From contig NZ_CP089979.1 of assembly GCF_021389935.1 (NCBI RefSeq), positions 2,523,001 through 2,587,000 on the forward strand: a stretch of 64,000 nucleotides of DNA, in the 5' to 3' direction. Below are positions 1-42,007 of this stretch, piece by piece. Each line of letters begins with the position of its first letter. Positions within the stretch are counted from its first letter, which is position 1. Under the pieces are notes generated by a model. It was not told where the DNA came from, searched no databases, and saw only the letters and a program-made list of their open reading frames with translations. Both the position numbers and the translations under genes were made by a program. The stretch is from Fulvivirga ligni (GTDB lineage: Bacteria > Bacteroidota > Bacteroidia > Cytophagales > Cyclobacteriaceae).

Positions 1-3000
1 AATCGATATTTCGTCAGAGACCATACAGGAGACGTTTTTGCAAAGCTTTCAACAGAATGCGGATCAATTAGCCATTTCTTCCGATGAAAAAGAATATACT
101 TATGGTGAACTTAACCGAGTCACTAATGAAATTTCTTTATGGTTACAGCATAAGAATCTTGGTAATGGTAAACACATTGCTCTATATATTGAGGATAAAT
201 CTTCTCTTATCATTTGGATTTTAGCGGTCTTAAAGGCACGATCGGTTTTTATTCCTCTAGATACCAATCATCCCATCGAAAGAATTATACAACTTGTTGG
301 TGCCAGTGAGTGTAATCTGATCATAAGTGACGCAGCGGGAAAGGCAGATCTTAAGGATAAAGATATTTGCACTGAAATAGTGGTTGCTTCCGAAATTATG
401 ACTGACTTACCTAAAGATATGGCAGAATTTATTCAGCCAGAATATGATGGGGAAGATAAAGTTTATATCTATTTTACTTCAGGTTCAAGCGGAACCCCGA
501 AAGCTATTGTTGGTAAAAATTTGAGTTTAAATCATTTTATTAATTGGGAAATTAACACTTTCAATATTGATAGCACCTTTAAAGTCAGTCAGTTTATCAA
601 TCCTGGATTCGATGCTTTCTTAAGAGATATCTTTTCAGCCTTGGTCGTTGGAGGAACAATCTGCATTCCTTCTTCAAATTTATCTGGTGACGAGATCATA
701 GAATGGATTGATAAACAAAAGATTACTCTAATTCACTGTGTGCCAAGTTTTTTTAAGCTATTTCTATCAACAGGACTTAGCAGTGTGAAATTTGAAAGCC
801 TGAGATATATTTTAATGTCAGGTGAAAAGCTTAACACTCGTGATTTATCAGTATGGTATCAAGTGATGGGTAATAAGGTGCAGTTGGTTAATCTTTATGG
901 TCCCTCTGAGACAACGATGATCAGGACTTTTTACTTAGTGCAACCTGGAGATGCAAAGCTGCCATCGGTACCTATAGGAAAGCCTATATCTGGCACACAA
1001 ATATTCCTACTTGATAAAAATCTCCGTCCTGTTGGAGAAGGGCATGTGGGAGAAATTTTTATAAGAACAAAATATGGTACACATGGATACCTGGACAAAG
1101 AATTGAATAAAGGTTCCTTCATTGCTAATCCATATGCGAACGATAAACAGGATTTTCTTTACAAAACTGGTGATTTAGGACGATTTAACCCACAGGGTGA
1201 CTTGGAATTTTTGGGTCGGGTAGACCGCCAGGTAAAGATCAGAGGAGTTCGGATAGAACCTGCCGAAATAGAAATTAAACTTCAAGAACATCCTGTAATT
1301 TCCAATGCTGTAGTAAAAGCTTTTACTGCAGATACCGGTGGTCACTTTCTTTGTGCTTATATGGTTAGAGGCCAACATGAAATTACTGCTTCAGAGGTTC
1401 GTCAATACCTGCATGATCATTTGCCTGCTTATCTCATTCCTGATCACCTCATATTTTTAGAAACCTTACCATTACTAACTAATGGTAAGATTGATGAAAG
1501 AAGTCTTCCTGATCCGCGTAAGATAGCAGATGTTCAAATTATTCCGCCTAAAACTCAGACACAAAAGGTTTTGGTGGAAATATGGGCTGAAATACTAGAT
1601 ATGGATATCAACTCGGTAAGTGTGGAGACAGGATTCATGGATTTGGGGGGACACTCATTAAAATTATTATTTCTTGGGAATCAAATCATGAAACGTTTTT
1701 CTGTAGATATGGAGCTTACTCGTATCGTTGAATTACAGACTATTGTCAAGTTGGGTGAGTTCATAGACTCAGCAGCTGAGGCGTCTCATGAGAAGATTCC
1801 AAAAGTTGAGACCAGGGATTTTTATCCATTATCTTCTTCTCAAAAACGACTATTTTATTTACATGCCTATGATAAAGAGTCATTGTCATATAATATGACT
1901 CAGGTTGTTACATTAAATGGAAAATTGTCCAAAGATTGGTTAGAGAAAACTTTTGAGAGACTCATCGAACGACATGAGAGCTTAAGAACTAGGTTTGGAT
2001 TTGAAAATGATGAGCCTGTGCAGTATATAGCTGATAAGTTAGCATTTAAGGTGAATTATTTGGGCAAGCAAGAAAATATTGCTGATGCTATTCATCATTT
2101 TATTAAGCCGTTTGACTTATCACAGGCATCAGTATTCCGTGTTGGAGTTATAGAGGTGTCTAGTGTTGAAAATGTTTTGATAATAGATAACCATCATATT
2201 ATTTCGGATGGTCTTAGTCATAATATTTTATTACAGGATTTCATGTCTTTATATAACGATGAGGAACTCCCTGAACTACACCTCCAGTATAAAGATTATG
2301 CGGTTTGGCAACAATCAGAGAGTCAAAAGCGCGCCTTGTCTTCACACAAAGAGTATTGGCTAAATGAATTTGCGGATAACATTCCTGAATTGTCCTTACC
2401 AGTAGACTATTCCTCAGTATCCGAAAGAGATGGCACAAAGGGTACAGTTAAGTTCACGCTAGGGGCTGTACAGACAGATAAATTGCGAAATCTTGCCGGA
2501 GAAGAATCTACGACACTTTTTGTGGTACTGTTGAGTATATATAACATTTTACTTTCCAAGCTCGCTAATACAGAAGATGTGATTATAGGTACTTCTGTTT
2601 CTGGTCGTTCTCACGCCGATCTTGAAAGAGTAACAGGCGTATTTATTAATGCATTGGCATTGCGCAACTATCCACATGGAGGTAAGCCGTTTCGAGAATT
2701 TTTAAAGGAAGTAAATAAGCGTACTTTTGATGCGTTTGAACATCAAAAGTACCCCTATGAGGATCTGATTGAAGCTCTTAACCTTCAGAGAGATTCGAAT
2801 AAAAATCCTCTTTTCAATGTGATGTTTGAGTATTTTAACTTTGACCAGCCGGAACTAACCATTGATGGACTTAAACTGACACCAGTTGATACTGGAGCCG
2901 GTGCTGCAAAGTTTGATATCACCTTAAGGGTAAATGAGGTTAAAGATTATCTTGATCTCAGTTTTCAATATGCCAGTGATAAGTTTAAAGAGGAAACTAT

Positions 3001-6000
3001 AATTCGATTTACAACATGGTTTGAGCGTATTGCAGAGCATATTACGGAGCAACTTGACACTCAGTTGATGAATATATCACTGTTATCGTCAGAAGATTAT
3101 GATCTGTTAGCTTTATACAATAAAACTACATTAAATTATTCTTCTTCAGAAAGTTTAGTGTCAATGTTTGAACAGCAGGTGTCTCAACATCCGGATCGCG
3201 TGGCGATTTCATTTGGAGGTGAGAGTCTTACCTACAAAGAACTCAATGAATATGCTAATAGAGTAGCTCATTATCTTCTTTCAGTGGGTGTGGTACCCGG
3301 AAGTGTAGTTGCATTGTTATTGGATAGATCCTTGAATATGCTTATAGGTATTTTTGGAGTATTGAAAGCCGGAGCGGGATACTTACCATTAGATCCAGAT
3401 TTACCAGAACAGCGAGTTAGCTATATGCTTGATCAAAGTCGAGCAGGAATTTTGCTATCTCAAGCTAATTACCTTGAGCAATTTTCTGCCTATCTTCCTG
3501 TGCAGGATATTGATTCACCAGTAATAACAGACAGCCCCAATACCAATCCAGGGATCGAGGTAACAGGTTCAGACCTTGCATATTGTATTTTCACATCTGG
3601 TTCTAGCGGGCGTCCTAAGGGTGTTATGATGAGCCAGGGCAGTGTTATCAACCTTGTAAAAGGTTTGGAAAGTAGAGTATATAATAATTTGGATGTATCC
3701 TCGGGTCTTCGTGTTGTCTTGGTTGCATCTTATTCTTTTGATGCATCGGGTCAGCAGATCTTTGGCGCGTTACTACATGGTCATAGTCTTTATATAACAG
3801 AAGAGGATAGCCGCCGTGATGGAGGTCAATTGCTTTCATTTTATAATACCCATTCAATAGATGTTTCGGATGGCACTCCCACCCATTTACGGATGCTGGT
3901 TAATAGTTTGGAGGAAGGTTCTACTCTATGTCTTCAGTCATGGATATTAGCAGGAGAAGCTCTTCCTAAGGATCTGGTATTAAAGTTTTATTCTCAACTA
4001 GGGGAGGGAGTACAGTTGTACAATTTTTATGGACCAACCGAGACCTGTATAGATTCTACAGGTTATCGAGTTGAGCTTTCGAATCTTGAAAAATATGATA
4101 CTATCCCAATCGGTAAACCACTACCTAATGAGCGCGTTTACGTTACAGATCGATATGGCAAGTTAGTGTCTCCCGGTGTAATAGGAGAGCTCTGCATTGC
4201 AGGAGACGGGCTGGCCAGATGTTATGCAGGAGAGGAGTCTCTTACAACTGAGAAGTTCAGCACTGGCTGGGTTGATGGGGAGGATCGCGTATATCGAACA
4301 GGAGATCTGGTAAAATGGCTTCCATGTGGTAACCTGTCCTACCATGGTCGCATGGATGATCAGGTAAAGCTACGAGGTTATCGTGTAGAGTTACAGGAGA
4401 TAGAGCACAGACTAAGTATGCACGAATCTATTCATGGTTCTGTGGTACTGATAAATGATGATTCAGGTGATGAGCATCTTGTGGCATATTATGAATCAGA
4501 GTTTGAGTTATCAGTAGAAGTACTGCGTCATTATCTGGAGTCTTACCTACCATCTTACATGGTTCCCTCTTATTATGTTCACATGCACAAGCTACCTTTA
4601 ACAGTAAATGGTAAATTAAACCGCAGGGAGTTACCAGCATATGAGCATACTAAAGGAGAGGCATTTGTATCTCCCACTACCGATACGGAGCTGAAGCTGG
4701 CCTCTATCTGGGGTGATGTTTTAAAGCTGGATCCTGAATCTATCAGTGTGAACACTGGATTTTTTGATCTTGGAGGACATTCTCTCAAGCTTGTTTTCTT
4801 GGCTAATAAAATCAGGAAGGAACTAGGAGCAGAACTTTCACTAACACAGATTATAGAGTTACAAACTATAGCCAGGCTTGCTGCGGCTATTGTTCCTGTA
4901 GTTACTACGACACATTCATCAATACCTAAAGCTTCCCCTTCAGAGTATTATCCTTTATCCCCTTCCCAAAAAAGATTATACTTTTTACATTCTTACAATA
5001 AAGAATCACTGGCCTATAACATGACTCAGGCGGTAACTCTGAAGGGTGTTTTAGATAGAGAGAAATTGGATAATGCTTTTAAGTCACTGATTAGTCGTCA
5101 TGATAGTTTACGTACATCTTTTGATTTTGTAGATGGCGTTGTTGTTCAGCGGATCAGTGATTTCACGGATTTTCAGATAGAATATTTAGAACCTCAGAAC
5201 GATATCGAGAATGAAGTACTGAGTTTTATACGTCCATTTGATTTATCACAAGCCCCCTTGATACGTGCAGGGGTCATTGAAGTGGCATCTGATGAACATG
5301 TTTTGGTTGTAGATAACCATCATATTATATCAGACGGAGTTACGAACGGTATCTTATTGAAAGAGTTTATGGCCCTTTATGCTGGTCATTCTTTACCATC
5401 ACTACCTCTTCAATATCATGATTATGTTGTTTGGCAGCAGCAGGAAGATCAGCAGGCTGTTTTAGCATCACAGAAAGATTTTTGGGTCAATGAATTCATA
5501 GATGAAGTAGAAGAGCTAACACTTCCGATGGATTATTCACGGCCATTAAGCAGCACCAATGAGGGGGGCATAGTCTGGTTTAATCTGGGTAAGGGCCACA
5601 CATCTGCATTAAAAGCATTGGCTGGGCAGGAAAACACCACATTATTTGTGGTGATGTTAAGCATCTATAACCTGCTACTAGGTAAACTGGCCAATACAGA
5701 AGATGTGGTAGTGGGCACTTCTGTTTCCGGTCGTTCTCATTCAGATCTTGAAAGTGTAACCGGAGTATTTATTAATGCATTGGCATTGCGGAATCATCCT
5801 CATGGATCTAAGTCTTTTCGAGAGTTTTTAAGGGAGGTAAATAAGCGTACTTTTGATGCGTTTGAACATCAGGATTATCCCTATGAGGACCTTGTAGAGG
5901 CATTAAACCTTAATCGTGATAGTGCGAATCGTCATCCGTTATTCAATGTGATGTTTGAGTACTTTAACTTTGAGCATCCTGAACTTACTTTACCAGGGCT

Positions 6001-9000
6001 TACATTAGAACCTTTTACTTATGAATTGGGAGTTTCCCGATTCGATCTCACCTTGAGAGTTAAAGAAGAAAATGAGCAGCTTATTTTAAGTTTTCAATAT
6101 TCTGGAGATTTGTTTAAAAGATCTTCTGTGGAATCATTTGCTTTAGCTTTTGAAAAGCTAACAGATGTAGCTTTAAAGCATCCGGAGTCAGCAATTATGG
6201 ATATGTCAATGGTATCAGAGTATGATCTGAGCCTGTTATCTTCTTTTAACAATACATCACTTTCCTATGCAGGAGAGGCAGGCCTTGTGGCCTTGTTTGA
6301 AAAGCAGGTGTCACAATATCCTGACCGCGTGGCAGTGGTCTTTAAAGGGGAGTCGTTAACATATAGTGAGTTGAATGAACGAGCCAATCAAGTGGCTAAC
6401 TATCTTTTATCTTCGGGAGTTACACAGGGTAGTATAGTAGCTCTACAGCTAGACCGCTCTGTAGATATACTCATAGGTATTTTAGGAGTATTAAAGGGCG
6501 GAGCAGGCTACTTACCAATAGACCCCGATTTACCGGAGCAACGTATTAATTATATGCTAGCACAAAGTGGTGCCGAATATTTGCTTTACCATTCGCGCTA
6601 TCAGGTGGATAAATCTGTACTTCCTGTTGTGGCTATAAATGCACCAGTAATAACAGACAGCCCCAATACCAATCCAGGGATCGAGGTAACAGGTTCAGAC
6701 CTTGCATATTGTATTTTCACATCTGGTTCTAGCGGGCGTCCTAAGGGTGTTATGATGAGCCAGGGCAGTGTTATCAACCTTGTAAAAGGTTTGGAAAGTA
6801 GAGTATATAATAATTTGGATGTATCCTCGGGTCTTCGTGTTGCCTTGGTTGCATCTTATTCTTTTGATGCATCGGGTCAGCAGATCTTTGGCGCGTTACT
6901 ACATGGTCATAGTCTTTATATAACAGATGAGGATAGCCGCCGTGATGGAGGTCAACTGCTTTCATTTTATAATACCCATTCAATAGATGTTTCGGATGGC
7001 ACTCCCACCCATTTACGGATGCTGGTTAATAGTTTGGAGGAAGGTTCTACTCTATGTCTTCAGTCATGGATATTAGCAGGAGAAGCTCTTCCTAAGGATC
7101 TGGTATTAAAGTTTTATTCTCAACTAGGGGAGGGAGTACAGTTGTACAATTTTTATGGACCAACCGAGACCTGTATAGATTCTACAGGTTATCGAGTTGA
7201 GCTTTCGAATCTTGAAAAATATGATACTATCCCAATCGGTAAACCACTACCTAATGAGCGCGTTTACGTTACAGATCGATATGGCAAGTTAGTGTCTCCC
7301 GGTGTAATAGGAGAGCTCTGCATTGCAGGAGACGGGCTGGCCAGATGTTATGCAGGAGAGGAGTCTCTTACAACTGAGAAGTTCAGCACTGGCTGGGTTG
7401 ATGGGGAGGATCGCGTATATCGAACAGGAGATCTGGTAAAATGGCTTCCATGTGGTAACCTGTCCTACCATGGTCGCATGGATGATCAGGTAAAGCTACG
7501 AGGTTATCGTGTAGAGTTACAGGAGATAGAGCACAGACTAAGTATGCACGAATCTATTCATGGTTCTGTGGTACTGATAAATGATGATTCAGGTGATGAG
7601 CATCTTGTGGCATATTATGAATCAGAGTTTGAGTTATCAGTAGAAGTACTGCGTCATTATCTGGAGTCTTACCTACCATCTTACATGGTTCCCTCTTATT
7701 ATGTTCACATGCACAAGCTACCTTTAACAGTAAATGGTAAATTAAACCGCAGGGAGTTACCAGCATATGAGCATACTAAAGGAGAGGCATTTGTATCTCC
7801 CACTACCGATACGGAGCTGAAGCTGGCCTCTATCTGGGGTGATGTTTTAAAGCTGGATCCTGAATCTATCAGTGTGAACACTGGATTTTTTGATCTTGGA
7901 GGACATTCTCTCAAGCTTGTTTTCTTGGCTAATAAAATCAGGAAGGAACTAGGAGCAGAACTTTCACTAACACAGATTATAGAGTTACAAACTATAGCCA
8001 GGCTTGCTGCGGCTATTGTTCCTGTAGTTACTACGACACATTCATCAATACCTAAAGCTTCCCCTTCAGAGTATTATCCTTTATCCCCTTCCCAAAAAAG
8101 ATTATACTTTTTACATTCTTACAATAAAGAATCACTGGCCTATAACATGACTCAGGCGGTAACTCTGAAGGGTGTTTTAGATAGAGAGAAATTGGATAAT
8201 GCTTTTAAGTCACTGATTAGTCGTCATGATAGTTTACGTACATCTTTTGATTTTGTAGATGGCGTTGTTGTTCAGCGGATCAGTGATTTCACGGATTTTC
8301 AGATAGAATATTTAGAACCTCAGAACGATATCGAGAATGAAGTACTGAGTTTTATACGTCCATTTGATTTATCACAAGCCCCCTTGATACGTGCAGGGGT
8401 CATTGAAGTGGCATCTGATGAACATGTTTTGGTTGTAGATAACCATCATATTATATCAGACGGAGTTACGAACGGTATCTTATTGAAAGAGTTTATGGCC
8501 CTTTATGCTGGTCATTCTTTACCATCACTACCTCTTCAATATCATGATTATGTTGTTTGGCAGCAGCAGGAAGATCAGCAGGCTGTTTTAGCATCACAGA
8601 AAGATTTTTGGGTCAATGAATTCATAGATGAAGTAGAAGAGCTAACACTTCCGATGGATTATTCACGGCCATTAAGCAGCACCAATGAGGGGGGCATAGT
8701 CTGGTTTAATCTGGGTAAGGGCCACACATCTGCATTAAAAGCATTGGCTGGGCAGGAAAACACCACATTATTTGTGGTGATGTTAAGCATCTATAACCTG
8801 CTACTAGGTAAACTGGCCAATACAGAAGATGTGGTAGTGGGCACTTCTGTTTCCGGTCGTTCTCATTCAGATCTTGAAAGTGTAACCGGAGTATTTATTA
8901 ATGCATTGGCATTGCGGAATCATCCTCATGGATCTAAGTCTTTTCGAGAGTTTTTAAGGGAGGTAAATAAGCGTACTTTTGATGCGTTTGAACATCAGGA

Positions 9001-33100: not shown

Positions 33101-36100
33101 CTATGTATGCTCCTCAGATGTGTCCTCATCAGATCTTAGAGGTCATTTGCAATCTGTTTTACCTGATTATATGGTTCCTCCGCATTATGTACATTTATCA
33201 CATTTGCCTCTTACTTCCAGCGGGAAGGTAAACAAAAGGGCGCTGCCTATCCCAGATCTTACAGAAGGATCAGACTATGAAGGTGCATCCACGGCCCTGG
33301 AGAGTCAGTTGGTAGAGGTTTGGTCAGAAGTATTAAAGTTACCCGCGGCAGATATCAGTGTTACCCGCAGTTTTTTCGAGCTGGGAGGTCATTCACTACG
33401 AGCAACGGTAATGGTCAATAAGCTGGCAAAAGTTCTAGAGGTATCAGTACCCTTGCAGTCGGTATTCCGTTATCAGGATATTCGTAGCCTTGGTCGCTAC
33501 ATATCAGGTTTAGGAGTTACCTCATATGAGCCTATTCCTATAGCCTCAGAAAAGGCCAGTTATTCCCTGTCTCCCTCTCAGCAGCGGATGTATTTTTTAT
33601 ATGAGTATGACCGTAGCTCTGTAGCTTATAATATGCCCCGTGTTTTACGATTGGGCTCTACGATAAATTTAGATCAGTTAAAGTTGGCTATACATGGTCT
33701 GGTTCTTCGTCATGAGATATTACGTACCAGCTTTGAAGAGGATGAAGAAGTTGTATTTCAGCGAGTTCAAAGTGGAGAAGATTTTGCGTTAGAAACTTAT
33801 AAAGGGAAAGAGTGTGAGATAGACTCAATAGTTTCAGATTTTGTACGTCCTTTTAATTTGAGTGAGAGTCCCTTCCGGGCAGGTTTAATCATTTTAGAAG
33901 AAGGGGGTTATATTTTACTCATGGATATGCATCACATAGTAAGTGATGGTGTTTCAGACGGTATACTTGTAGATGACTTTGTGCAGTTATATTCTGGTAA
34001 TGACTTGCCCGAAGTTCGTCTTCATTACAAGGATTATGCGGAATGGCAGCAGTCAGATTCCCAGCAGTCATTACTAGAGTCCCAACGTACCTACTGGCTG
34101 GAGGTTTATTCTGACTCAGTGAGTCCTCTTGAGCTTCCACTGGATTATTCACGTCCAGAAGAGATGAGCTATGCAGGAGGTTTACGCAGTTATAGATTAA
34201 GTGAAGATTTGAGTATCGGCCTACGCAAGTTATCAGAAGGGAGTGAAGCTACTATGTTCATGACGTTTTTGTCGTTACTGAATATTTTTCTGAGCAAATT
34301 ATGTAATCAGTCAGATATAGTAGTAGGTACTCCTGTAGCGGGTCGTCATCATGCAGATCTTGAAGATGTTGTTGGCTTGTTTGTTAACACCTTGCCATTA
34401 CGTCATCATGTTGAAGGTTCTGGAAGCTTCCGTTCTTTTCTGGAGCATGTAAAAAGCGTTTCATTATCGGGCTTTGCGCATCAGGTTTATCCTTATGAAG
34501 AGTTGGTAGATATTCTGCATATACCCCGATCGGTGAACCGTAATCCTTTGTTTGATGTGATGTACTCCTATCATAACCAGGAGTCTTCTAGTGATGTTCA
34601 GGGAGATTTGGATGTTTCTCTTTATGAGGGTTCGAGTTCCCGAATTATATCCAAGTTTGATTTAAATTTTTCTATTGTAGATCAGGGGGCACAATTTGAG
34701 ATTAATCTGATATACAAAACCTCATTATTTTCACCCTCCACGATAGATCGTTTTATGGGTTATATAGATCGTATTATCACTACGGTCATACCGAACCCTG
34801 ATATACTTTTGAACGATATAGATATTTTATCAGCTTTAGAGCGTGATAAGTTGCTTGAAGATAGCAGAGGAGAGGAAGTGGATTATTCATCAGAGAAGAC
34901 AGTTCTGGACTTATTTGAAGAGCAGGTATCTCTTACACCGGATCATATATCCTTGGTTTATCATGATCAGGAGTTGACCTACCGTGAATTAGATGCTCGT
35001 TCAAACCAGCTGGCTAATTATTTGATTGAAGTACAGGGAGTTTCTCGCGGAGATATTATCGGGTTGATGGTTGATCGTTGCCCGGAGCTTATAATTGGGA
35101 TGCTGGGTATCCTGAAATCAGGGTGTACTTACCTTCCTGTTGATATTAGTCAGCCAGAATTACGTATACTGAATCAGCTTGCTGAGAGTGGTTCTGTTCT
35201 TTTACTTACAGATAGCACAGGTACATGGTCAGGTAGTAGTATACCGTTGCTGAATATTAATGACCGTTCTATACTTAATTCTTCTGTTAATGCCCCGTGT
35301 GTTAGGATATCGGTTACGGATACGGTTTATATTATTTATACATCAGGCAGTACAGGTACTCCTAAAGGGGTTATGATAGGTCATGAAGGGATTGTAAATC
35401 TGATAGCTCACCAGCAGAAGTATTTTGGGATATCTGATGATGAGCGTATACTTCAGTTTTCTACGATAATATTTGATGCTTCCGTAGAGCAGATCTGGCT
35501 GGCACTATTAAGTGGTTCATCGCTGGTGCTGATCGGTAAAGATGATATTTCAGAGTCAGACAGGTTTAAAAGTTATTTAATTACTCATGGGGTCACCCAT
35601 TTGCATGCTACACCGTCGTTTCTTGAGAGCATTGATATCGGTGAAGTTCCTACTTTACGCAGGGTAGTTTCCGGAGGAGAGGCCTGCAAAAGAGATCTTT
35701 ACAACCGGTATAAAGGGCGCTATTTGTTTTATAATGAATATGGACCTACCGAGACAACTGTCACCAGCATTGAATACCATGCAACAGATAGTTCTTCAAT
35801 CCGTTCAGAACTTCCTATAGGCAAACCTATCCAAAACACACAGGCCTATGTATTGGGTTTGAATTTGGAGGTATTACCAAAGGGCGCTATCGGAGAGCTT
35901 TACCTTGGAGGGAAGGGGCTTGCACAGGGCTACCTAAACAACCCTTCTCTCACACAGGATAAATTTGTAGATAACCCTTATGGATCAGTAGGAGATCGGA
36001 TGTACCGCACGGGAGACCTTGCCCGTTGGCGTTCAGACGGTGTTCTGGAGTTTATGGGTCGTGTAGACGATCAGGTTAAAGTTCGAGGCTACCGTATAGA

Positions 36101-39100
36101 GCCAGGCGAGATAGAACACCAGCTACTGTTGCATCCATCTATAGACAGTGCAGTAGTTGTAGCACAGGGAGAGTCAGAGAAGTACCTTGTGGCTTACTAT
36201 GTATGCTCCTCAGATGTGTCCTCATCAGATCTTAGAGGTCATTTGCAATCAGTTTTACCTGATTATATGGTTCCTCCGCATTATGTACATTTATCACACT
36301 TACCTCTTACTTCCAGCGGGAAGGTAAACAAAAGGGCGCTGCCTATCCCAGATCTTACAGAAGGATCAGACTATGAAGGTGCATCCACGGCCCTGGAGAG
36401 TCAGTTGGTAGAGGTTTGGTCAGAAGTATTAAAGTTACCCGCGGCAGATATCAGTGTTACCCGCAGTTTTTTCGAGCTGGGAGGTCATTCACTACGAGCA
36501 ACGGTAATGGTCAATAAGCTGGCTAAAGTTCTTGAGGTATCAGTACCCTTGCAGTCGGTATTCCGTTATCAGGATATTCGTAGCCTTGGTCGCTACATAT
36601 CAGGTTTAGGAGTTACCTCATATGAGCCTATTCCTATAGCCTCAGAAAAGGCCAGTTATTCCCTGTCTCCCTCTCAGCAGCGGATGTATTTTTTATATGA
36701 GTATGACCGTAGCTCTGTAGCTTATAATATGCCCCGTGTTTTACGATTGGGCTCTACGATAAATTTAGATCAGTTAAAGTTGGCTATACATGGTCTGGTT
36801 CTTCGTCATGAGATATTACGTACCAGCTTTGAAGAGGATGAAGAAGTTGTATTTCAGCGAGTTCAAAGTGGAGAAGATTTTGCGTTAGAAACTTATAAAG
36901 GGAAAGAGTGTGAGATAGACTCAATAGTTTCAGATTTTGTACGTCCTTTTAATTTGAGTGAGAGTCCCTTCCGGGCAGGTTTAATCATTTTAGAAGAAGG
37001 GGGTTATATTTTACTCATGGATATGCATCACATAGTAAGTGATGGTGTTTCAGACGGTATACTTGTAGATGACTTTGTGCAGTTATATTCTGGTAATGAC
37101 TTGCCCGAAGTTCGTCTTCATTACAAGGATTATGCGGAATGGCAGCAGTCAGATTCCCAGCAGTCATTACTAGAGTCCCAACGTACCTACTGGCTGGAGG
37201 TTTATTCTGACTCAGTGAGTCCTCTTGAGCTTCCACTGGATTATTCACGTCCAGAAGAGATGAGCTATGCAGGAGGTTTACGCAGTTATATATTAAGTGA
37301 AGATTTGAGTATCGGCCTACGCAAGTTATCAGAAGGGAGTGAAGCTACTATGTTCATGACGTTTTTGTCGTTACTGAATATTTTTCTGAGCAAATTATGT
37401 AATCAGTCAGATATAGTAGTAGGTACTCCTGTAGCGGGTCGTCATCATGCAGATCTTGAAGATGTTGTTGGCTTGTTTGTTAACACCTTGCCATTACGTC
37501 ATCATGTTGAAGGTTCTGGAAGCTTCCGTTCTTTTCTGGAGCATGTAAAAAGCGTTTCATTATCGGGCTTTGCGCATCAGGTTTATCCTTATGAAGAGTT
37601 GGTAGATATTCTGCATATACCCCGATCGGTGAACCGTAATCCTTTGTTTGATGTGATGTACTCCTATCATAACCAGGAGTCTTCTAGTGATGTTCAGGGA
37701 GATTTGGATGTTTCTCTTTATGAGGGTTCGAGTTCCCGAATTATATCCAAGTTTGATTTAAATTTTTCTATTGTAGATCAGGGGGCACAATTTGAGATTA
37801 ATCTGATATACAAAACCTCATTATTTTCACCCTCCACGATAGATCGTTTTATGGGTTATATAGATCGTATTATCACTACGGTCATACCGAACCCTGATAT
37901 ACTTTTGAGCGATATAGATATTTTATCAGCTTTAGAGCGTGATAAGTTGCTTGAAGATAGCAGAGGAGAGGAAGTGGATTATTCATCAGAGAAGACAGTT
38001 CTGGACTTATTTGAAGAGCAGGTATCTCTTACACCGGATCATATATCCTTGGTTTATCATGATCAGGAGTTGACCTACCGTGAATTAGATGCTCGTTCAA
38101 ACCAGCTGGCTAATTATTTGATTGAAGTACAGGGAGTTTCTCGCGGAGATATTATCGGGTTGATGGTTGATCGTTGCCCGGAGCTTATAATTGGGATGCT
38201 GGGTATCCTGAAATCAGGGTGTACTTACCTTCCTGTTGATATTAGTCAGCCAGAATTACGTATACTGAATCAGCTTGCTGAGAGTGGTTCTGTTCTTTTA
38301 CTTACAGATAGCACAGGTACATGGTCAGGTAGTAGTATACCGTTGCTGAATATTAATGACCGTTCTATACTTAATTCTTCTGTTAATGCCCCGTGTGTTA
38401 GGATATCGGTTACGGATACGGTTTATATTATTTATACATCAGGCAGTACAGGTACTCCTAAAGGGGTTATGATAGGTCATGAAGGGATTGTAAATCTGAT
38501 AGCTCACCAGCAGAAGTATTTTGGGATATCTGATGATGAGCGTATACTTCAGTTTTCTACGATAATATTTGATGCTTCCGTAGAGCAGATCTGGCTGGCA
38601 CTATTAAGTGGTTCATCGCTGGTGCTGATCGGTAAAGATGATATTTCAGAGTCAGACAGGTTTAAAAGTTATTTAATTACTCATGGGGTCACCCATTTGC
38701 ATGCTACACCGTCGTTTCTTGAGAGCATTGATATCGGTGAAGTTCCTACTTTACGCAGGGTAGTTTCCGGAGGAGAGGCCTGCAAAAGAGATCTTTACAA
38801 CCGGTATAAAGGGCGCTATTTGTTTTATAATGAATATGGACCTACCGAGACAACTGTCACCAGCATTGAATACCATGCAACAGATAGTTCTTCAATCCGT
38901 TCAGAACTTCCTATAGGCAAACCTATCCAAAACACACAGGCCTATGTATTGGGTTTGAATTTGGAGGTATTACCAAAGGGCGCTATCGGAGAGCTTTACC
39001 TTGGAGGGAAGGGGCTTGCACAGGGCTACCTAAACAACCCTTCTCTCACACAGGATAAATTTGTAGATAACCCTTATGGATCAGTAGGAGATCGGATGTA

Positions 39101-40415
39101 CCGCACGGGAGACCTTGCCCGTTGGCGTTCAGACGGTGTTCTGGAGTTTATGGGTCGTGTAGACGATCAGGTTAAAGTTCGAGGCTACCGTATAGAGCCA
39201 GGCGAGATAGAACACCAGCTACTGTTGCATCCATCTATAGACAGTGCAGTAGTTGTAGCACAGGGAGAGTCAGAGAAGTACCTTGTGGCTTACTATGTAT
39301 GCTCCTCAGATGTGTCCTCATCAGATCTTAGAGGTCATTTGCAATCTGTTTTACCTGATTATATGGTTCCTCCGCATTATGTACATTTATCACATTTGCC
39401 TCTTACTTCCAGCGGGAAGGTAAACAAAAGGGCGCTGCCTATCCCAGATCTTACAGAAGGATCAGACTATGAAGGTGCATCCACGGCCCTGGAGAGTCAG
39501 TTGGTAGAGGTTTGGTCAGAAGTATTAAAGTTACCCGCGGCAGATATCAGTGTTACCCGCAGTTTTTTCGAGCTGGGGGGTAACTCTATAAATGCAATGA
39601 AACTAATTTCTAAGATAAAAAATGTCCTCAAAGAGAATGTCGCTTTAAAAGATATATTTCATTATCAAACGATTAGAAGTTTGTCTGAAAATATCGAAAA
39701 TATTCAATCTGAAGAAAATTTGGTGATTAGATTAAATGAGATAAAACAAGAGCATCGTAGTGCATTTTTTGTGCCACCTATAGTTGGATCATCTACTATA
39801 TTTAAATCCTTGGCTCTCTTGCTTAATGAGCATTTCAACGCATATGGATTTCAATATAAAGGTTTTGATTATGATGAATCATTTAGCAGAAGTATCGAAG
39901 AGATGGCACAAACCTATGTAACCTTAATTGAAAAAGTCAAACCTGATAGAAATATTTCACTTATAGGGTATTCAATGGGAGCTATTGTGGCTTTTGAAAT
40001 GACCAAATTATTAGAAGATCTGGGATATAATGTAGTGTTAGTATTGCTAGATAGATATCCCTATCAGGAAATTGAACATGTTAGTGATCAGTCTCTTGAA
40101 AAGATAGTTAAAAATGAGTTGCGAGACTGGTTACATGATCTTGAAAATAGTCAGCTAGAAAGACTCGAAAATCTCATTAAGAATAACATCAGAATTCAGG
40201 ACGGGTATAGTGTGAGCGGCAAAATAAAAGGCAAAATAATCGCAGTGGAAGCAAAAGGGAATTCAAATCAGGGAAGAATGAGGGAATGGAGAGATTTATC
40301 TGAAGGGGGATTTGACCATCATTTTATTGATGCTGATCATTACAGTGTATTAAGAGAAGAAAATTTAATTAAAATCTCCAATTTAATTTTGAGGGAAATT
40401 TCCCAATACGCCTGA
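20988..40415 (+). CDS. Nonribosomal peptide synthetase, 6 modules plus terminal thioesterase
   Basis: 6475 residues. The layout is a TubC-type docking domain (1-55), six C-A-T modules, and a type I thioesterase (about 6245-6475). C domains start near residues 72, 1102, 2130, 3160, 4190 and 5222 and all carry HHI(I/V)SDG. T domains carry GGHS except the last, which has GGNS. Modules 1 and 4 share one A type, modules 3, 5 and 6 a second, and module 2 has a third. The parts from the end of the A domain through T and C are nearly identical in all modules, with a spacing of 3084-3096 bp. A1 and A4 have PNG in place of PKG in core motif A3. The start ATG overlaps the stop of the second synthetase by 4 bp. 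As the only protein in the locus with a TE, it should carry out the last elongations and release the product by hydrolysis or cyclization. Confidence 0.97.
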   Translation: MTIDEYITELRQRDIIVQVRDNQLEVKASKELLTPQVVGELREKKDEILDFFLKVNNRKISDPILPAAPQPYYALSAAQHRMYFLYAYERGAVAYNMPHIQRLGASLDADQLRYALKELVVRHEILRTSFEEYEDDVVQVIHSGLDFEIEEYSCTEEGVSTAVDNFIRPFKLEFSSFRAGLINVDNGDYILLMDMHHIISDGVSDGILLDDLVKLYRGESLSPVRLHYKDYSEWQQNESQQTLLSKQKSFWLNTYSDLVSPLELPLDYERPEEMNYDGGFQKYTLSKKLSSGLRLQSQETGHTLFMTFLSIFNIFLAKVCNQEDIVVGTPVAGRQHPDLEDVVGLFVNTLPLRNHATGTLSFQSFLKSVKSRVLQSFENQGYPYEELVDVLHIPRSVNRNPLFDVLFNYQNLEGHTVDFDGLDIIGQEASSHIISKFDLSLSVSDVGDCFQMEFEYKSSLFSPSTIDRFMGYLERIISSVLSEPGILLQDIDILSSREREELLDDFSGQEFSHPIDKTVLDFFKSQVSQTPDNIALIYEDIQLSYKELDDRTNQLANYLIERKGVNIEDVVGIYLRRSEEIVIAMLGILKSGGSYVPIDNEYTNERVNKIIKESGAGCIITDIEVEMLEGLDVIYIKEDPIISESPSTAPNVSISSSSLAYIIYTSGSTGVPNGVLISHNSLLDYSLTFKEYFSITAADRVIQQSSIAFDTIVEEVFPALLSGASIIVMPNGGRDIDYLKNSIQNHGANVLSTTPLVLSELNTSAAELQNLRLIISGGDVLIPTYIDRLMNFFPVYNTYGPSEATVCITYNRINKLSDTSLIGRPVYNHRVYIVDKYGKLCVRGSVGELCVSGPGLARGYLNNPSLTQDKFVDNPYGSVGDRMYRTGDLARWGSDGVLEFMGRVDDQVKVRGYRIEPGEIEHQLLLHPSIDSAVVVAQGESEKYLVAYYVCSSDVSSSDLRGHLQSVLPDYMVPPHYVHLSHLPLTSSGKVNKRALPIPDLTEGSDYEGASTALESQLVEVWSEVLKLPAADISVTRSFFELGGHSLRATVMVNKLAKVLEVSVPLQSVFRYQDIRSLSRYISGLGVTSYEPIPIASEKASYSLSPSQQRMYFLYEYDRSSVAYNMPRVLRLGSTINLDQLKLAIHGLVLRHEILRTSFEEDEEVVFQRVQSGEDFALETYRGKECEIDSIVSDFVRPFNLSESPFRAGLIILEEGGYILLMDMHHIVSDGVSDGILVDDFVQLYSGNDLPEVRLHYKDYAEWQQSDSQQSLLESQRTYWLEVYSDSVSPLELPLDYSRPEEMSYAGGLRSYRLSEDLSIGLRKLSEGSEATMFMTFLSLLNIFLSKLCNQSDIVVGTPVAGRHHADLEDVVGLFVNTLPLRHHVEGSGSFRSFLEHVKSVSLSGFAHQVYPYEELVDILHIPRSVNRNPLFDVMYSYHNQESSSDVQGDLDVSLYEGSSSRIISKFDLNFSIVDQGAQFEINLIYKTSLFSPSTIDRFMGYIDRIITTVIPNPDILLNDIDILSALERDKLLEDSRGEEVDYSSEKTVLDLFEEQVSLTPDHISLVYHDQELTYRELDARSNQLANYLIRRGITCGDIVCILSEPSFDFVIGILGILKCGAAFLSIAPDYPYERINYILKDSQYRLLLTQSKFSLKIPSLEKYINLDDPSSYDLSDDPSQMFPAAKDLAYVIYTSGSTGNPKGVMIEHSSLMNLCNWHNLHFNVSSSDRATKYAGIGFDASIWEIFPYLILGASIHIIDTSIKYDVHQLNNYFNANNITISFLPTQLCEQFLTLTNHSLRVLLTGGDKLRVVHKNDYKLYNNYGPTENTVVTTCFEIDDDSLALGNIPIGRPVYNHRVYIVDKYGKLCVRGSVGELCVSGPGLARGYLNNPSLTQDKFVDNPYGSVGDRMYRTGDLARWRSDGVLEFMGRVDDQVKVRGYRIEPGEIEHQLLLHPSIDSAVVVAQGESEKYLVAYYVCSSDVSSSDLRGHLQSVLPDYMVPPHYVHLSHLPLTSSGKVNKRALPIPDLTEGSDYEGASTALESQLVEVWSEVLKLPAADISVTRSFFELGGHSLRATVMVNKLAKVLEVSVPLQSVFRYQDIRSLSRYISGLGVTSYEPIPIASEKASYSLSPSQQRMYFLYEYDRSSVAYNMPRVLRLGSTINLDQLKLAIHGLVLRHEILRTSFEEDEEVVFQRVQSGEDFALETYRGKECEIDSIVSDFVRPFNLSESPFRAGLIILEEGGYILLMDMHHIVSDGVSDSILVDDFVQLYSGNDLPEVRLHYKDYAEWQQSDSQQSLLESQRTYWLEVYSDSVSPLELPLDYSRPEEMSYAGGLRSYRLSEDLSIGLRKLSEGSEATMFMTFLSLLNIFLSKLCNQSDIVVGTPVAGRHHADLEDVVGLFVNTLPLRHHVEGSGSFRSFLEHVKSVSLSGFAHQVYPYEELVDILHIPRSVNRNPLFDVMYSYHNQESSSDVQGDLDVSLYEGSSSRIISKFDLNFSIVDQGAQFEINLIYKTSLFSPSTIDRFMGYIDRIITTVIPNPDILLNDIDILSALERDKLLEDSRGEEVDYSSEKTVLDLFEEQVSLTPDHISLVYHDQELTYRELDARSNQLANYLIEVQGVSRGDIIGLMVDRCPELIIGMLGILKSGCTYLPVDISQPELRILNQLAESGSVLLLTGSTDTWSGSSIPLLNINDRSILNSSISAPCVRISVTDTVYIIYTSGSTGTPKGVMIGHEGIVNLIAHQKRYFGISDDERILQFSTIIFDASVEQIWLALLSGSSLVLIGKDDISESDRFKSYLITHGVTHLHATPSFLESIDIGEVPTLRRVVSGGEACKRDLYNRYKGRYLFYNKYGPTETTVTSIEYHATDSSSIRSELPIGKPIQNTQAYVLGLNLEVLPKGAIGELYLGGKGLAQGYLNNPSLTQDKFVDNPYGSVGDRMYRTGDLARWGSDGVLEFMGRVDDQVKVRGYRIEPGEIEHQLLLHPSIDSAVVVAQGESEKYLVAYYVCSSDVSSSDLRGHLQSVLPDYMVPPHYVHLSHLPLTSSGKVNKRALPIPDLTEGSDYEGASTALESQLVEVWSEVLKLPAADISVTRSFFELGGHSLRATVMVNKLAKVLEVSVPLQSVFRYQDIRSLSRYISGLGVTSYEPIPIASEKASYSLSPSQQRMYFLYEYDRSSVAYNMPRVLRLGSTINLDQLKLAIHGLVLRHEILRTSFEEDEEVVFQRVQSGEDFALETYRGKECEIDSIVSDFVRPFNLSESPFRAGLIILEEGGYILLMDMHHIVSDGVSDSILVDDFVQLYSGNDLPEVRLHYKDYAEWQQSDSQQSLLESQRTYWLEVYSDSVSPLELPLDYSRPEEMSYAGGLRSYILSEDLSIGLRKLSEGSEATMFMTFLSLLNIFLSKLCNQSDIVVGTPVAGRHHADLEDVVGLFVNTLPLRHHVEGSGSFRSFLEHVKSVSLSGFAHQVYPYEELVDILHIPRSVNRNPLFDVMYSYHNQESSSDVQGDLDVSLYEGSSSHIISKFDLSLSVSDVGDCFQMEFEYKSSLFSPSTIDRFMGYLERIISSVLSEPGILLQDIDILSSREREELLDDFSGQEFSHPIDKTVLDFFKSQVSQTPDNIALIYEDIQLSYKELDDRTNQLANYLIERKGVNIEDVVGIYLRRSEEIVIAMLGILKSGGSYVPIDNEYTNERVNKIIKESGAGCIITDIEVEMLEGLDVIYIKEDPIISESPSTAPNVSISSSSLAYIIYTSGSTGVPNGVLISHNSLLDYSLTFKEYFSITAADRVIQQSSIAFDTIVEEVFPALLSGASIIVMPNGGRDIDYLKNSIQNHGANVLSTTPLVLSELNTSAAELQNLRLIISGGDVLIPTYIDRLMNFFPVYNTYGPSEATVCITYNRINKLSDTSLIGRPVYNHRVYIVDKYGKLCVRGSVGELCVSGPGLARGYLNNPSLTQDKFVDNPYGSVGDRMYRTGDLARWGSDGVLEFMGRVDDQVKVRGYRIEPGEIEHQLLLHPSIDSAVVVAQGESEKYLVAYYVCSSDVSSSDLRGHLQSVLPDYMVPPHYVHLSHLPLTSSGKVNKRALPIPDLTEGSDYEGASTALESQLVEVWSEVLKLPAADISVTRSFFELGGHSLRATVMVNKLAKVLEVSVPLQSVFRYQDIRSLGRYISGLGVTSYEPIPIASEKASYSLSPSQQRMYFLYEYDRSSVAYNMPRVLRLGSTINLDQLKLAIHGLVLRHEILRTSFEEDEEVVFQRVQSGEDFALETYKGKECEIDSIVSDFVRPFNLSESPFRAGLIILEEGGYILLMDMHHIVSDGVSDGILVDDFVQLYSGNDLPEVRLHYKDYAEWQQSDSQQSLLESQRTYWLEVYSDSVSPLELPLDYSRPEEMSYAGGLRSYRLSEDLSIGLRKLSEGSEATMFMTFLSLLNIFLSKLCNQSDIVVGTPVAGRHHADLEDVVGLFVNTLPLRHHVEGSGSFRSFLEHVKSVSLSGFAHQVYPYEELVDILHIPRSVNRNPLFDVMYSYHNQESSSDVQGDLDVSLYEGSSSRIISKFDLNFSIVDQGAQFEINLIYKTSLFSPSTIDRFMGYIDRIITTVIPNPDILLNDIDILSALERDKLLEDSRGEEVDYSSEKTVLDLFEEQVSLTPDHISLVYHDQELTYRELDARSNQLANYLIEVQGVSRGDIIGLMVDRCPELIIGMLGILKSGCTYLPVDISQPELRILNQLAESGSVLLLTDSTGTWSGSSIPLLNINDRSILNSSVNAPCVRISVTDTVYIIYTSGSTGTPKGVMIGHEGIVNLIAHQQKYFGISDDERILQFSTIIFDASVEQIWLALLSGSSLVLIGKDDISESDRFKSYLITHGVTHLHATPSFLESIDIGEVPTLRRVVSGGEACKRDLYNRYKGRYLFYNEYGPTETTVTSIEYHATDSSSIRSELPIGKPIQNTQAYVLGLNLEVLPKGAIGELYLGGKGLAQGYLNNPSLTQDKFVDNPYGSVGDRMYRTGDLARWRSDGVLEFMGRVDDQVKVRGYRIEPGEIEHQLLLHPSIDSAVVVAQGESEKYLVAYYVCSSDVSSSDLRGHLQSVLPDYMVPPHYVHLSHLPLTSSGKVNKRALPIPDLTEGSDYEGASTALESQLVEVWSEVLKLPAADISVTRSFFELGGHSLRATVMVNKLAKVLEVSVPLQSVFRYQDIRSLGRYISGLGVTSYEPIPIASEKASYSLSPSQQRMYFLYEYDRSSVAYNMPRVLRLGSTINLDQLKLAIHGLVLRHEILRTSFEEDEEVVFQRVQSGEDFALETYKGKECEIDSIVSDFVRPFNLSESPFRAGLIILEEGGYILLMDMHHIVSDGVSDGILVDDFVQLYSGNDLPEVRLHYKDYAEWQQSDSQQSLLESQRTYWLEVYSDSVSPLELPLDYSRPEEMSYAGGLRSYILSEDLSIGLRKLSEGSEATMFMTFLSLLNIFLSKLCNQSDIVVGTPVAGRHHADLEDVVGLFVNTLPLRHHVEGSGSFRSFLEHVKSVSLSGFAHQVYPYEELVDILHIPRSVNRNPLFDVMYSYHNQESSSDVQGDLDVSLYEGSSSRIISKFDLNFSIVDQGAQFEINLIYKTSLFSPSTIDRFMGYIDRIITTVIPNPDILLSDIDILSALERDKLLEDSRGEEVDYSSEKTVLDLFEEQVSLTPDHISLVYHDQELTYRELDARSNQLANYLIEVQGVSRGDIIGLMVDRCPELIIGMLGILKSGCTYLPVDISQPELRILNQLAESGSVLLLTDSTGTWSGSSIPLLNINDRSILNSSVNAPCVRISVTDTVYIIYTSGSTGTPKGVMIGHEGIVNLIAHQQKYFGISDDERILQFSTIIFDASVEQIWLALLSGSSLVLIGKDDISESDRFKSYLITHGVTHLHATPSFLESIDIGEVPTLRRVVSGGEACKRDLYNRYKGRYLFYNEYGPTETTVTSIEYHATDSSSIRSELPIGKPIQNTQAYVLGLNLEVLPKGAIGELYLGGKGLAQGYLNNPSLTQDKFVDNPYGSVGDRMYRTGDLARWRSDGVLEFMGRVDDQVKVRGYRIEPGEIEHQLLLHPSIDSAVVVAQGESEKYLVAYYVCSSDVSSSDLRGHLQSVLPDYMVPPHYVHLSHLPLTSSGKVNKRALPIPDLTEGSDYEGASTALESQLVEVWSEVLKLPAADISVTRSFFELGGNSINAMKLISKIKNVLKENVALKDIFHYQTIRSLSENIENIQSEENLVIRLNEIKQEHRSAFFVPPIVGSSTIFKSLALLLNEHFNAYGFQYKGFDYDESFSRSIEEMAQTYVTLIEKVKPDRNISLIGYSMGAIVAFEMTKLLEDLGYNVVLVLLDRYPYQEIEHVSDQSLEKIVKNELRDWLHDLENSQLERLENLIKNNIRIQDGYSVSGKIKGKIIAVEAKGNSNQGRMREWRDLSEGGFDHHFIDADHYSVLREENLIKISNLILREISQYA
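22536..23978 (+). other. A domain, NRPS3 module 1, basic/Lys-like code
   Basis: The code reads D-T-E-S-I-G-T-V-C-K (AFDTIVEEVF, VLSTTPL, LIISGGD, YNTYGPSEATVC). The Glu at 239 and the overall pattern resemble codes for basic amino acids such as Lys, but this is from memory and weak. Core motif A3 has Asn (codon 23004-23006) where Lys is nearly invariant. Confidence 0.6.
25626..27062 (+). other. A domain, NRPS3 module 2, Leu predicted
   Basis: The code reads D-A-W-F-L-G-N-V-V-K (GFDASIWEIF, SFLPTQL, VLLTGGD, YNNYGPTENTVV). This is exactly the established Leu code found in lipopeptide synthetases, which also supports the by-eye alignment used for the other domains. The divergent core begins at about 25756 and ends before 26540, inside a frame shared with the neighbouring modules. 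Confidence 0.88.
28710..30158 (+). other. A domain, NRPS3 module 3, code with Lys at position 322
   Basis: The code reads D-A-E-H-V-G-K-V-T-K (IFDASVEQIW, HLHATPS, RVVSGGE, YNKYGPTETTVT). I do not recognise it. It differs from the otherwise almost identical modules 5 and 6 at the specificity position 322, where this copy has Lys (codon 29550-29552) and the others have Glu. Confidence 0.65.
31806..33248 (+). other. A domain, NRPS3 module 4, copy of module 1 A domain
   Basis: This domain is essentially identical to that of module 1, including the D-T-E-S-I-G-T-V-C-K code and the PNG variant of motif A3 (Asn codon 32274-32276). The identity extends upstream into the last part of the C domain (from about 31551), which marks the size of the copied block. 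Confidence 0.65.
34896..36344 (+). other. A domain, NRPS3 module 5, code with Glu at position 322
   Basis: The code reads D-A-E-H-V-G-E-V-T-K. The domain is nearly identical to that of module 3 except for scattered changes, one of which alters the specificity residue 322 to Glu (codon 35736-35738). It is the same as module 6. Confidence 0.65.
37992..39440 (+). other. A domain, NRPS3 module 6, code with Glu at position 322
   Basis: The code reads D-A-E-H-V-G-E-V-T-K with the Glu codon at 38832-38834. It is a near-perfect copy of the module 5 domain at an offset of 3096 bp, so the last two residues of the product should be the same. Confidence 0.65.
39720..40412 (+). other. Type I thioesterase domain of NRPS3
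   Basis: An alpha/beta-hydrolase thioesterase of about 230 residues closes the protein. The nucleophile is Ser 6329 in GYSMGA (codon 39972-39974), where GYSFGG is more usual. A likely acid is the Asp in VLLDRYP and the base is His in DADHYSVL. It should release the finished chain from the GGNS-type last T domain. Whether it cyclizes cannot be told from the sequence. Confidence 0.85.
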
Positions 40416-40477: not shown

Positions 40478-41269
40478 ATGGATGATAAAATCATAGGAAT
40501 TGTAGGGGGTATGGGACCCCAGGCAGGAGCAGCATTATTCAATGAAATATTAGCTAATACTACCGTAAAAGAGGACCAACAACATTTATCTGTAATACTA
40601 ATGTCCTTTCCAAAAGATATTACTGATCGTACAGCATTTCTGGAAGGAAAAGAAAAGGTTAATCCTGCCAAAAGCATAGTCGAGGTTATTTCTAAACTTG
40701 AGTACGCCGGGGCGAAAATAATAGGATTGGCATGCAATACGTCTTATTCTCCAGAAATATATGATGTTATTATAAAAGAACTTAAACAAATAAATAGTGA
40801 AGTTCAGTTATTAAATATGCCTATAGAAACGTGTAAATACATTAGAGATAATTATAAGCAGGTACGGAGAATAGGACTGATGACTACCAATGGAACATAC
40901 AAAACGGGATTATATAAGAATATCTTGGAAGATATGGGTTATGAGATTGTTATTCCAGACTTACAATTTCAGGAGAATTTCATTCATAAGATGATTTATG
41001 ATCGCAATTTTGGGATTAAGTCAAATACTAATAGCATATCCAAAGAGGCGCTGTCTTTATTAGATCGGGCTTTGGGTTTTTTCTCTGAAAGAAAAGCTGA
41101 TGCGATTATTCTTGGTTGTACCGAATTATCCTTAATCTTAAAGAAAGAAATGGTTGAAAATATGCTAATAATAGATTCAACACAAGTTTTTGCAAAAGCC
41201 TTAATCAGAGCAGGCAGAACCCATGAAATAAAATGCAATTCTACAATATTATTAAAACAGGAATTTTAA
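40478..41269 (+). CDS. Asp/Glu-family amino-acid racemase
   Basis: 263 residues, the usual size of the cofactor-independent aspartate/glutamate racemase family. The N-terminus has GIVGGMGPQAG, and the two catalytic cysteines are Cys86 in ACNTS and Cys214 in GCTEL. It lies 62 bp after the last synthetase and 21 bp before a type II thioesterase on the same strand, so it is very likely cotranscribed with the peptide locus. Since none of the synthetases in the window has an epimerization domain, an obvious role is to supply a free D-amino acid (D-Asp or D-Glu by family, other substrates possible) for direct activation. Family assignment is firm; substrate and link to the product are inferred. Confidence 0.9.
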   Translation: MDDKIIGIVGGMGPQAGAALFNEILANTTVKEDQQHLSVILMSFPKDITDRTAFLEGKEKVNPAKSIVEVISKLEYAGAKIIGLACNTSYSPEIYDVIIKELKQINSEVQLLNMPIETCKYIRDNYKQVRRIGLMTTNGTYKTGLYKNILEDMGYEIVIPDLQFQENFIHKMIYDRNFGIKSNTNSISKEALSLLDRALGFFSERKADAIILGCTELSLILKKEMVENMLIIDSTQVFAKALIRAGRTHEIKCNSTILLKQEF

Positions 41270-41290
41270 AATAAAAAGAATAATGAAATT

Positions 41291-42007
41291 ATGAGTCATT
41301 TAAAATTATTTGCTTTTCCCTATGCTGGGGGTTCGTCAGGTGTTTACGATAGTTTAAAACCACTTTTGCTAGAGCAGATAGACTTTATTCCTGTAGAGCT
41401 GGCTGGGAGGGGAAAGAGGATGGGCGAAAAGCCATACGAGAATTTGGACGTTGCAATTGATGATCTCTGTAAAATTGTTATTCCTCAAATAGGTTACAGT
41501 CAATTCGCTTTCTTAGGACATAGTATGGGGGCCTTACTTTCACATGCATTAGCTAAAAGACTTGAAGATGAGTCGGTAATATCCCCGAATCACATTTTTT
41601 TTTCCGGTCGAGGGGCTATACAGGTGAAAAGGAAAAAGGATAAAATATATCATCAAATGAATGATAAACAGTTTAAAGAAGAATTACATTTGCTTGGTGG
41701 TACACCTCGAGAATTCTTTCAATACCCAGAATTAATGGAACTATTTCTGCCATTGTTGAGAAATGACTTTCGAATTTCAGAGACTACAATTAAATATGAG
41801 GACTTTAAAAAAATGAATTTTGATATAACTGTATTTACAGGAACTCAAGATGATATAACGGAAGAACAGATTAATGGCTGGAATGATTACACTACAGGTA
41901 GTTGTAATATTCACACTTTTAAAGGTGGGCACTTCTTCATTAATAATGAAATGCATTCCATTGCTCAAATCATTAATGATACCGTTGCCCAATGTATCGC
42001 TAAATAA
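41291..42007 (+). CDS. Type II thioesterase of the NRPS locus
   Basis: 238 residues, the normal length for GrsT/SrfD-type external thioesterases. The start has the family hallmark FAFPYAGGSSGVY. Catalytic residues are Ser in GHSMGA, Asp in the GTQDD region and His in GGHFF. Such enzymes hydrolyse wrongly primed or stalled acyl groups from T domains. It is the last gene of the run of five same-strand genes that starts at the left edge, followed by an apparent boundary with a hairpin terminator. Confidence 0.94.
   Translation: MSHLKLFAFPYAGGSSGVYDSLKPLLLEQIDFIPVELAGRGKRMGEKPYENLDVAIDDLCKIVIPQIGYSQFAFLGHSMGALLSHALAKRLEDESVISPNHIFFSGRGAIQVKRKKDKIYHQMNDKQFKEELHLLGGTPREFFQYPELMELFLPLLRNDFRISETTIKYEDFKKMNFDITVFTGTQDDITEEQINGWNDYTTGSCNIHTFKGGHFFINNEMHSIAQIINDTVAQCIAK

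Follow-up and report, generated by a model that had tools for sequence, protein, structure and literature searches.

A FAAL/PKS/NRPS line in Fulvivirga ligni proposed to make an exported cationic lipopeptide of 15 residues

Which product is assembled by a large NRPS locus of Fulvivirga ligni whose A-domain codes are mostly unfamiliar? The locus was recognised in a stretch of 64,000 nucleotides (the window; bases 2523001-2587000 of a single-contig genome of 6.52 Mb), where the original prediction had described three synthetases with 13 A domains, one terminal thioesterase (TE), one racemase and one type II thioesterase, and a product of at least 13 residues. A Pfam scan of the genome found 13 AMP-binding domains in the three synthetases (4+3+6), and these, like the other features when compared with the open reading frames, lay where they had been placed. 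The minimum length was also borne out, but it was incomplete, as the cluster extends left of base 1: from window -32150 to 42007 it measures about 74 kb, of which the window holds the right-hand part. The approximately 32 kb to the left contain two more A domains, two PKS modules and a FAAL, and the left boundary is flanked by YebC and GAPDH genes. With the 13 A domains of the window, the two upstream ones bring the line to 15 amino-acid modules, beside the two PKS modules. Domain order, codes and gene content were read directly from the DNA: the C-A-T modules are collinear and end in a TE, and FAAL and acyl extension genes lie upstream of the NRPS modules, as in an NRPS/PKS lipopeptide line. 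The description as an NRPS locus was thus correct, but priming by PKS and FAAL, both encoded outside the window, makes it a lipopeptide line as well.

The cluster is proposed, with slightly better than an even chance of the whole being right, to be a FAAL/PKS/NRPS line whose product, a highly cationic lipopeptide of 15 residues, is exported; precursor and tailoring steps can be suggested for it. A fatty acid would be activated by the FAAL, and the acyl chain would be extended by a reducing PKS module and then by a KS-AT-KR module, after which a 3-hydroxy group would probably remain. SbnA and SbnB would make L-2,3-diaminopropionate (L-Dap), which a Dap transcarbamylase would convert to beta-ureidoalanine for loading by the three DAQDIAFIDK modules; the DARHLSLMIK module would receive D-Asp from the racemase of the cluster, a C domain resembling that of McyA would dehydrate the first Thr to dehydrobutyrine (Dhb), and the last six modules would add Lys, Leu and other basic residues. 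Once 15 amino acids were added, the TE would release the product, perhaps closing it to a macrolactone. The most likely product, judging from the sequence, would be acyl-D-Ser-(Pro-like)-D-Asp-(ureidoAla)3-Dhb-Thr-(Pro-like)-Lys-Leu-B-Lys-B-B, where B is a basic residue; we infer the residue identities other than Leu, Ser and Thr, as well as the dehydration, cyclisation and bioactivity. The codes predict that five of the last six residues are basic and the exporter is of the cyclic-peptide type, which makes an exported membrane-active antibiotic the most likely role.

Table 1. Features of the cluster, in genome or window coordinates.
Feature	Coordinates	Strand	Remarks
Carbamoyltransferase	genome 2490850-2491842		
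SbnA	genome 2492430-2493419		TIGR03945 380.3, cut-off 349.95
SbnB	genome 2493440-2494408		TIGR03944 303.5, below cut-off 326.9; best family by far
TauD dioxygenase	genome 2494500-2495495		
PhyH dioxygenase	genome 2495528-2496337		
Cyclic-peptide ABC exporter	genome 2496399-2498333		over family cut-off
MacB/FtsX protein	genome 2498367-2500748		
PKS	genome 2500801-2507145		KS-AT-DH-ER-KR-ACP
FAAL-ACP	genome 2507177-2509216		
NRPS0	genome 2509255-2518287		KS-AT-KR-ACP-C-A-T-E
A1 (NRPS0)			DVWHFSLVDK, Ser-type; E domain follows, then C domain starting like D-accepting ones
NRPS1	genome 2518298-2522950		C-A-T-C
A2 (NRPS1)			DVSFQAHVSK
NRPS2	window 1-11218, 5' end at window -16	+	3744 aa; A-T-(C-A-T)x3
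A3	window 35-1426	+	DARHLSLMIK, probable D-Asp
A4	window 3167-4555	+	DAQDIAFIDK, probable beta-ureidoalanine
A5	window 6296-7681	+	DAQDIAFIDK; protein identical to A6
A6	window 9422-10807	+	DAQDIAFIDK
NRPS3	window 11305-20991	+	3228 aa; (C-A-T)x3; Thr-type, Thr-type, Pro-like
A7	window 12877-14256	+	DVWNIAMVHK, Thr-type
C*	window 14713-16038	+	divergent C domain, HHSLFDG; between two Thr-type modules
A8	window 16102-17475	+	DFWNIGQVHK, Thr-type
A9	window 19219-20589	+	DPVFVAHVVK, Pro-like
NRPS4	window 20988-40415	+	6475 aa; (C-A-T)x6-TE
A10	window 22554-23897	+	DTESIGTVCK, basic, probably Lys
A11	window 25644-26981	+	DAWFLGNVVK, Leu
A12	window 28728-30077	+	DAEHVGKVTK, probably basic (Arg-cluster-like)
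A13	window 31824-33167	+	DTESIGTVCK; sequence almost identical to A10
A14	window 34914-36263	+	DAEHVGEVTK
A15	window 38010-39359	+	DAEHVGEVTK
Terminal type I thioesterase	window 39705-40412 (approximate limits)	+	GYSMG; read from sequence
Asp-type amino acid racemase	window 40478-41269	+	TIGR00035
Type II thioesterase	window 41291-42007	+	

Code positions were mapped by anchoring on the exact Leu code and the Ser-type code, and an independent alignment reproduced every ten-residue code quoted in the original prediction, including the single exact Leu code and the two Thr-type ones. The blocks of repeated residues that it foresaw are also present (DAQDIAFIDK three times, DTESIGTVCK and DAEHVGEVTK twice each). 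Its view that four code types could not be firmly assigned was not supported: sibling clusters from other genera contain the same codes, three of which go together with SbnA/SbnB/carbamoyltransferase, the racemase and the PhyH hydroxylase, respectively. An exact-code search of literature that included few subscription journals found none of six codes in an NRPS paper. The closest named relatives of the cluster are Flavobacteriia; the siblings belong to Aquimarina sediminis, A. acroporae, Flavobacterium sp. CF108, F. cupreum, F. panici, Tenacibaculum aiptasiae and an uncultured Flavobacteriaceae. They resemble the present cluster in the FAAL, PKS, exporter, DAQD module(s), transcarbamylase, C* core and basic tail; those read have 8-12 A domains, against 15 here, with different middle residues, and among them the racemase and PhyH occur in A. 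sediminis only. The last module of the last synthetase in Flavobacterium sp. CF108 (L050) and F. cupreum (L119/L120) has two tandem A domains, the first with a degenerate code (DVGHVSLIEN or DVGHVSLIED) and probably inactive.

The suggestion that several residues might be basic found support in Glu239, which is present in both DTESIGTVCK and DAEHVG[KE]VTK, and both codes look basic by sequence. The former resembles the bacitracin Lys code. The latter matches a published Arg consensus at 8/10 positions (PMC12283262). The Pro-like codes resemble DVQYVAHVVK (PMC9113097), but without Gln239; most Pro domains are recognisable by Val236 together with Gln239, a pair missing here. Since the PhyH dioxygenase is restricted to the two compared clusters with DP[VK]FVAHVVK, a hydroxylated proline is possible at this Pro-like module.

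The DARHLSLMIK module probably loads D-Asp. The racemase scored 150.3 with TIGR00035 (cut-off 93.1) and has both catalytic Cys motifs, ACNTS and GCTEL; relatives with at least 49% identity occur in genomes G000, G198 (A. sediminis), G649, G167 and G639, and are absent from G199, G200-G204, G184 and G072. DARHLSLMIK had been read in the first four of these genomes before G639 was used as a blind prediction, which succeeded: DARHLSLMVK was found there in a cluster ending with the racemase. Over eleven clusters, racemase and DARHLSLM[IV]K were both present in five and both missing in six (Fisher p=0.002, a value that takes no account of kinship and includes some incomplete clusters). It is this tracking of the racemase, the blind prediction included, that makes D-Asp probable. 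The DARH A domains form a clade with support 1.0. The D-methyl-Asp domain of microcystin synthetase, McyB, has the code DARHVGIFVK. The R239/H278 pair also occurs in the aminoadipate- and Asn-type codes DPRHLALLAK and DPRHVSLLAK (PMC12283262).

The domain C* probably dehydrates the first Thr to Dhb, as its sequence suggests. It is conserved in five sibling clusters (42-55% identity), with the second catalytic His of HHxxxDG kept in all six sequences. McyA was its top solved match (138 bits, against 100 for surfactin synthetase) and remained so when C* was used as a profile (169 bits, against 145 for BacC), whereas an ordinary C domain of the locus matched tyrocidine synthetase 3 first. The T domain ahead of C* fits this reading: it has GGDSL (GGDS), as does the T domain before the E domain, whereas GGHS is found in those that precede ordinary C domains. 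The CmodAA clade was founded on microcystin and bleomycin C domains, and it includes those C domains of AMB and related pathways whose dehydrating role has been characterised (PMC10880069). AmbE, a proven dehydrating C domain, nevertheless matched C* less well than several ordinary C domains, and dehydration by C* is therefore likely rather than established. A rival reading, in which C* acts as an ordinary C domain of the D-accepting or dual type and module 7 keeps its Thr (D- or allo-Thr), is considered fairly unlikely. In its favour, the next-best matches of C* are C domains of BacC and SrfA-C, and T domains serving E/DCL domains likewise carry GGDS (PMC10880069). However, module 7 has no E domain, the C* sequences of these clusters sort apart from the D-accepting domains located after E domains, and for the D-accepting domain of NRPS1 surfactin synthetase and McyB came first, far ahead of McyA.

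The carbamoyltransferase of the cluster is, by published signature, a putative L-Dap transcarbamylase. It carries TRWQTTG and HDLP, the motifs (loop form (T/S)RWQTTG) that separate L-Dap transcarbamylase, whose product is beta-ureidoalanine, from ornithine transcarbamylase (PMC4581275); the loop of Dab transcarbamylase, TRWQSMG, differs only slightly. The carbamoyl-phosphate motifs SxRT and HPxQ are present as STRTR and HPTQ, invariant in the alignment. Two other transcarbamylases are encoded in the genome, and the cluster enzyme is not the housekeeping one. The SbnA-family PLP enzyme and SbnB-family dehydrogenase occur together, as Dap synthesis calls for, and were found wherever contigs cover the upstream part. 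All seven sibling genomes encode the transcarbamylase, at 57-60% identity where the cluster sequence covers the gene (five siblings). Elsewhere it is rare: at E<1e-80 it was found in 1 of 396 genomes of a phylum-wide sample and 3 of 297 of a family sample; in a sample of 400 genomes around Aquimarina, the query's own genome was the only one to have it.

DAQDIAFIDK, originally called Gln/Glu-like, tracks this enzyme and more probably reads beta-ureidoalanine, a Gln isostere that would fit a Gln-like pocket. DAQDIAF[VI]DK was found in all six sibling clusters read (F. panici not being among them). The only codes common to all Dap/carbamoyl clusters are of the DAQD, Thr and Ser types, which leaves DAQD as the candidate. 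The DAQDIAF[VI]DK domains form one clade (support 0.97, with one Tenacibaculum DAQDLAIVDK inside), whose sister is the DAQDMGLVE domain of the transcarbamylase-bearing genome G184, and a Gln-type domain, DAQDLGVVDK, whose genome is of the same family of bacteria but lacks the transcarbamylase, falls outside. Because the sibling clusters are homologous, the co-occurrence counts are not independent, and some clusters end at contig ends. Among Streptomyces plasmid records, the same transcarbamylase sits in NRPS clusters (seven loci read), with a Gln-like DA[WL]Q.AT[VI]DK in five, a DAWD/DAQD-type code in the sixth and only a weakly similar one, DALQMAGGFK, in the seventh, which was left out of the code count for this and for its altered transcarbamylase loop. 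This seventh locus (L081, Streptomyces sp. ITFR-16 plasmid) has an SRWQTMG/HDLP transcarbamylase near methylaspartate mutase genes and a multi-module NRPS. The congener G649 has DAQDIAFVDK and SbnA/SbnB, yet its transcarbamylase, which stands beside SbnA/SbnB, is distant (28-30% identity, NCLP for HDLP). Its contig C25 (L109-L114) encodes a large PKS-NRPS line with DAQDIAFVDK, DARHLSLMIK and a beta-Ala-like VDVTFSIAD.

The same lipopeptide line could instead load Gln at DAQDIAFIDK, perhaps hydroxylated by TauD, in which case the Dap-derived residue would enter at another point, by way of a Ser- or basic-type code, say, or attached as an extra unit. Four of ten positions separate the code from the Gln/Glu code DAQDLGVVDK (PMC12283262), a likeness that speaks for Gln, and TauD (55-69% identity) tracks DAQD codes in 7/8 other DAQD clusters and adjoins the DAQD synthetase in G649. 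This reading is judged fairly improbable, as no other unassigned code is common to all Dap/carbamoyl clusters and the DAQDIAF clade is separate from the Gln-type domain found within the same family of bacteria. For Streptomyces, similarity upheld a tie of TauD to the transcarbamylase at only 1/7 loci, and this was not used. Loading of Dap itself, with the transcarbamylase acting on the peptide or on a different pool, would also agree with the constant presence of SbnA/SbnB, but is quite doubtful, given that the transcarbamylase shows the free-Dap signature and that the Streptomyces transcarbamylase clusters mostly have Gln-like codes, not Orn/Dab-like ones. It is put at an even chance that DAQDIAF[VI]DK is a beta-ureidoalanine code and that these clusters are an undescribed family of beta-ureidoalanine/Dhb cationic lipopeptides across Bacteroidota lineages, with three consecutive ureidoalanines here. 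If true, codes for beta-ureidoalanine and D-Asp would become readable, the zwittermicin/tuberactinomycin precursor pathway would be connected to a lipopeptide family, and precise mass predictions would make a cationic lipopeptide, presumably an antibiotic, findable in the related strains named, several of which are cultured.

Turnercyclamycins were considered for comparison with the proposed product. Microcystin synthetase, like the present cluster, combines an Asp-type racemase with a DARH-type A domain and has a McyA-like C domain after a hydroxy-amino-acid module, but differs in product length, acyl part and remaining codes, so that the resemblance is by parts only. Zwittermicin and the tuberactinomycins (viomycin/capreomycin) employ Dap and a Dap transcarbamylase to reach beta-ureidoalanine, as proposed here (PMC4581275, PMC6022934); they are small NRPS/PKS antibiotics, whereas here three modules of a 15-residue lipopeptide line apparently use it. 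The chitinopeptins, cyclic lipodepsipeptides of Chitinophaga with 14-15 residues, are Bacteroidota NRPS lipopeptides of like size, also with sbnA/sbnB and an ABC exporter and, in one relative, a PKS start (PMC9248904). Their own traits are beta-hydroxy-Asp/Phe/Ile, N-Me-Val, a CmlA-like hydroxylase and no racemase in trans (PMC9248904), while the present cluster has the transcarbamylase, racemase, FAAL start and basic C-terminal block, and no DLTK code, the mark of hydroxy-Asp modules, among its 15 A domains. Membership of the chitinopeptins was ruled out by codes and accessory genes, and a siderophore of their kind, suggested by the shared SbnA/SbnB and exporter, is very improbable, as neither an Asp-type DLTK code for hydroxyaspartate nor hydroxamate or catechol genes were seen in the cluster and the described chitinopeptin clusters have CmlA-like hydroxylase genes and no in-trans racemase (PMC9248904). 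In a literature search, with subscription journals mostly outside it and MIBiG not covered, no cluster or compound of the same gene content came up, in agreement with the original view of the locus as uncharacterised, although a published match may exist.

In NRPS4, DNA identity reaches 99-100% over most of the C domains of modules 11-15, and modules 10-15 have the end of A plus T in common. The A cores in between, by contrast, differ by half or more; exceptions are A10/A13 and A12/A14/A15. By its sequence, this pattern is an A-core exchange, within one gene, of the type reported as a main driver of NRPS diversity (PMC8097286). The modules of 3.1 kb, repeated at up to 99-100% (window 21201-40415), constitute a natural within-gene A-core swap set and a likely trap for short-read assembly.

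The congeneric genome G167 has a different NRPS cluster (L073 9702-19000) at the site of genome 2486104-2490850 (L022), in both cases after YebC, GAPDH and a ParB-like gene, and the site thus seems to exchange whole NRPS clusters. The 292-aa ParB-like protein (L022 3065-3943; genome 2489065-2489943) is found ahead of NRPS clusters in four genomes of this genus, at 52-76% identity, and is possibly a cluster-linked regulator; it was kept out of the model as an SbnI-type serine kinase, since it precedes clusters with and without Dap genes. To the right of the cluster, the window encodes a 1604-aa secreted protein (42976-47790) that combines a Por_Secre_tail sorting domain with numerous DxDxDG repeats of the calcium-binding type, adjoined by a cadherin/laminin-G lipoprotein (47915-48970).
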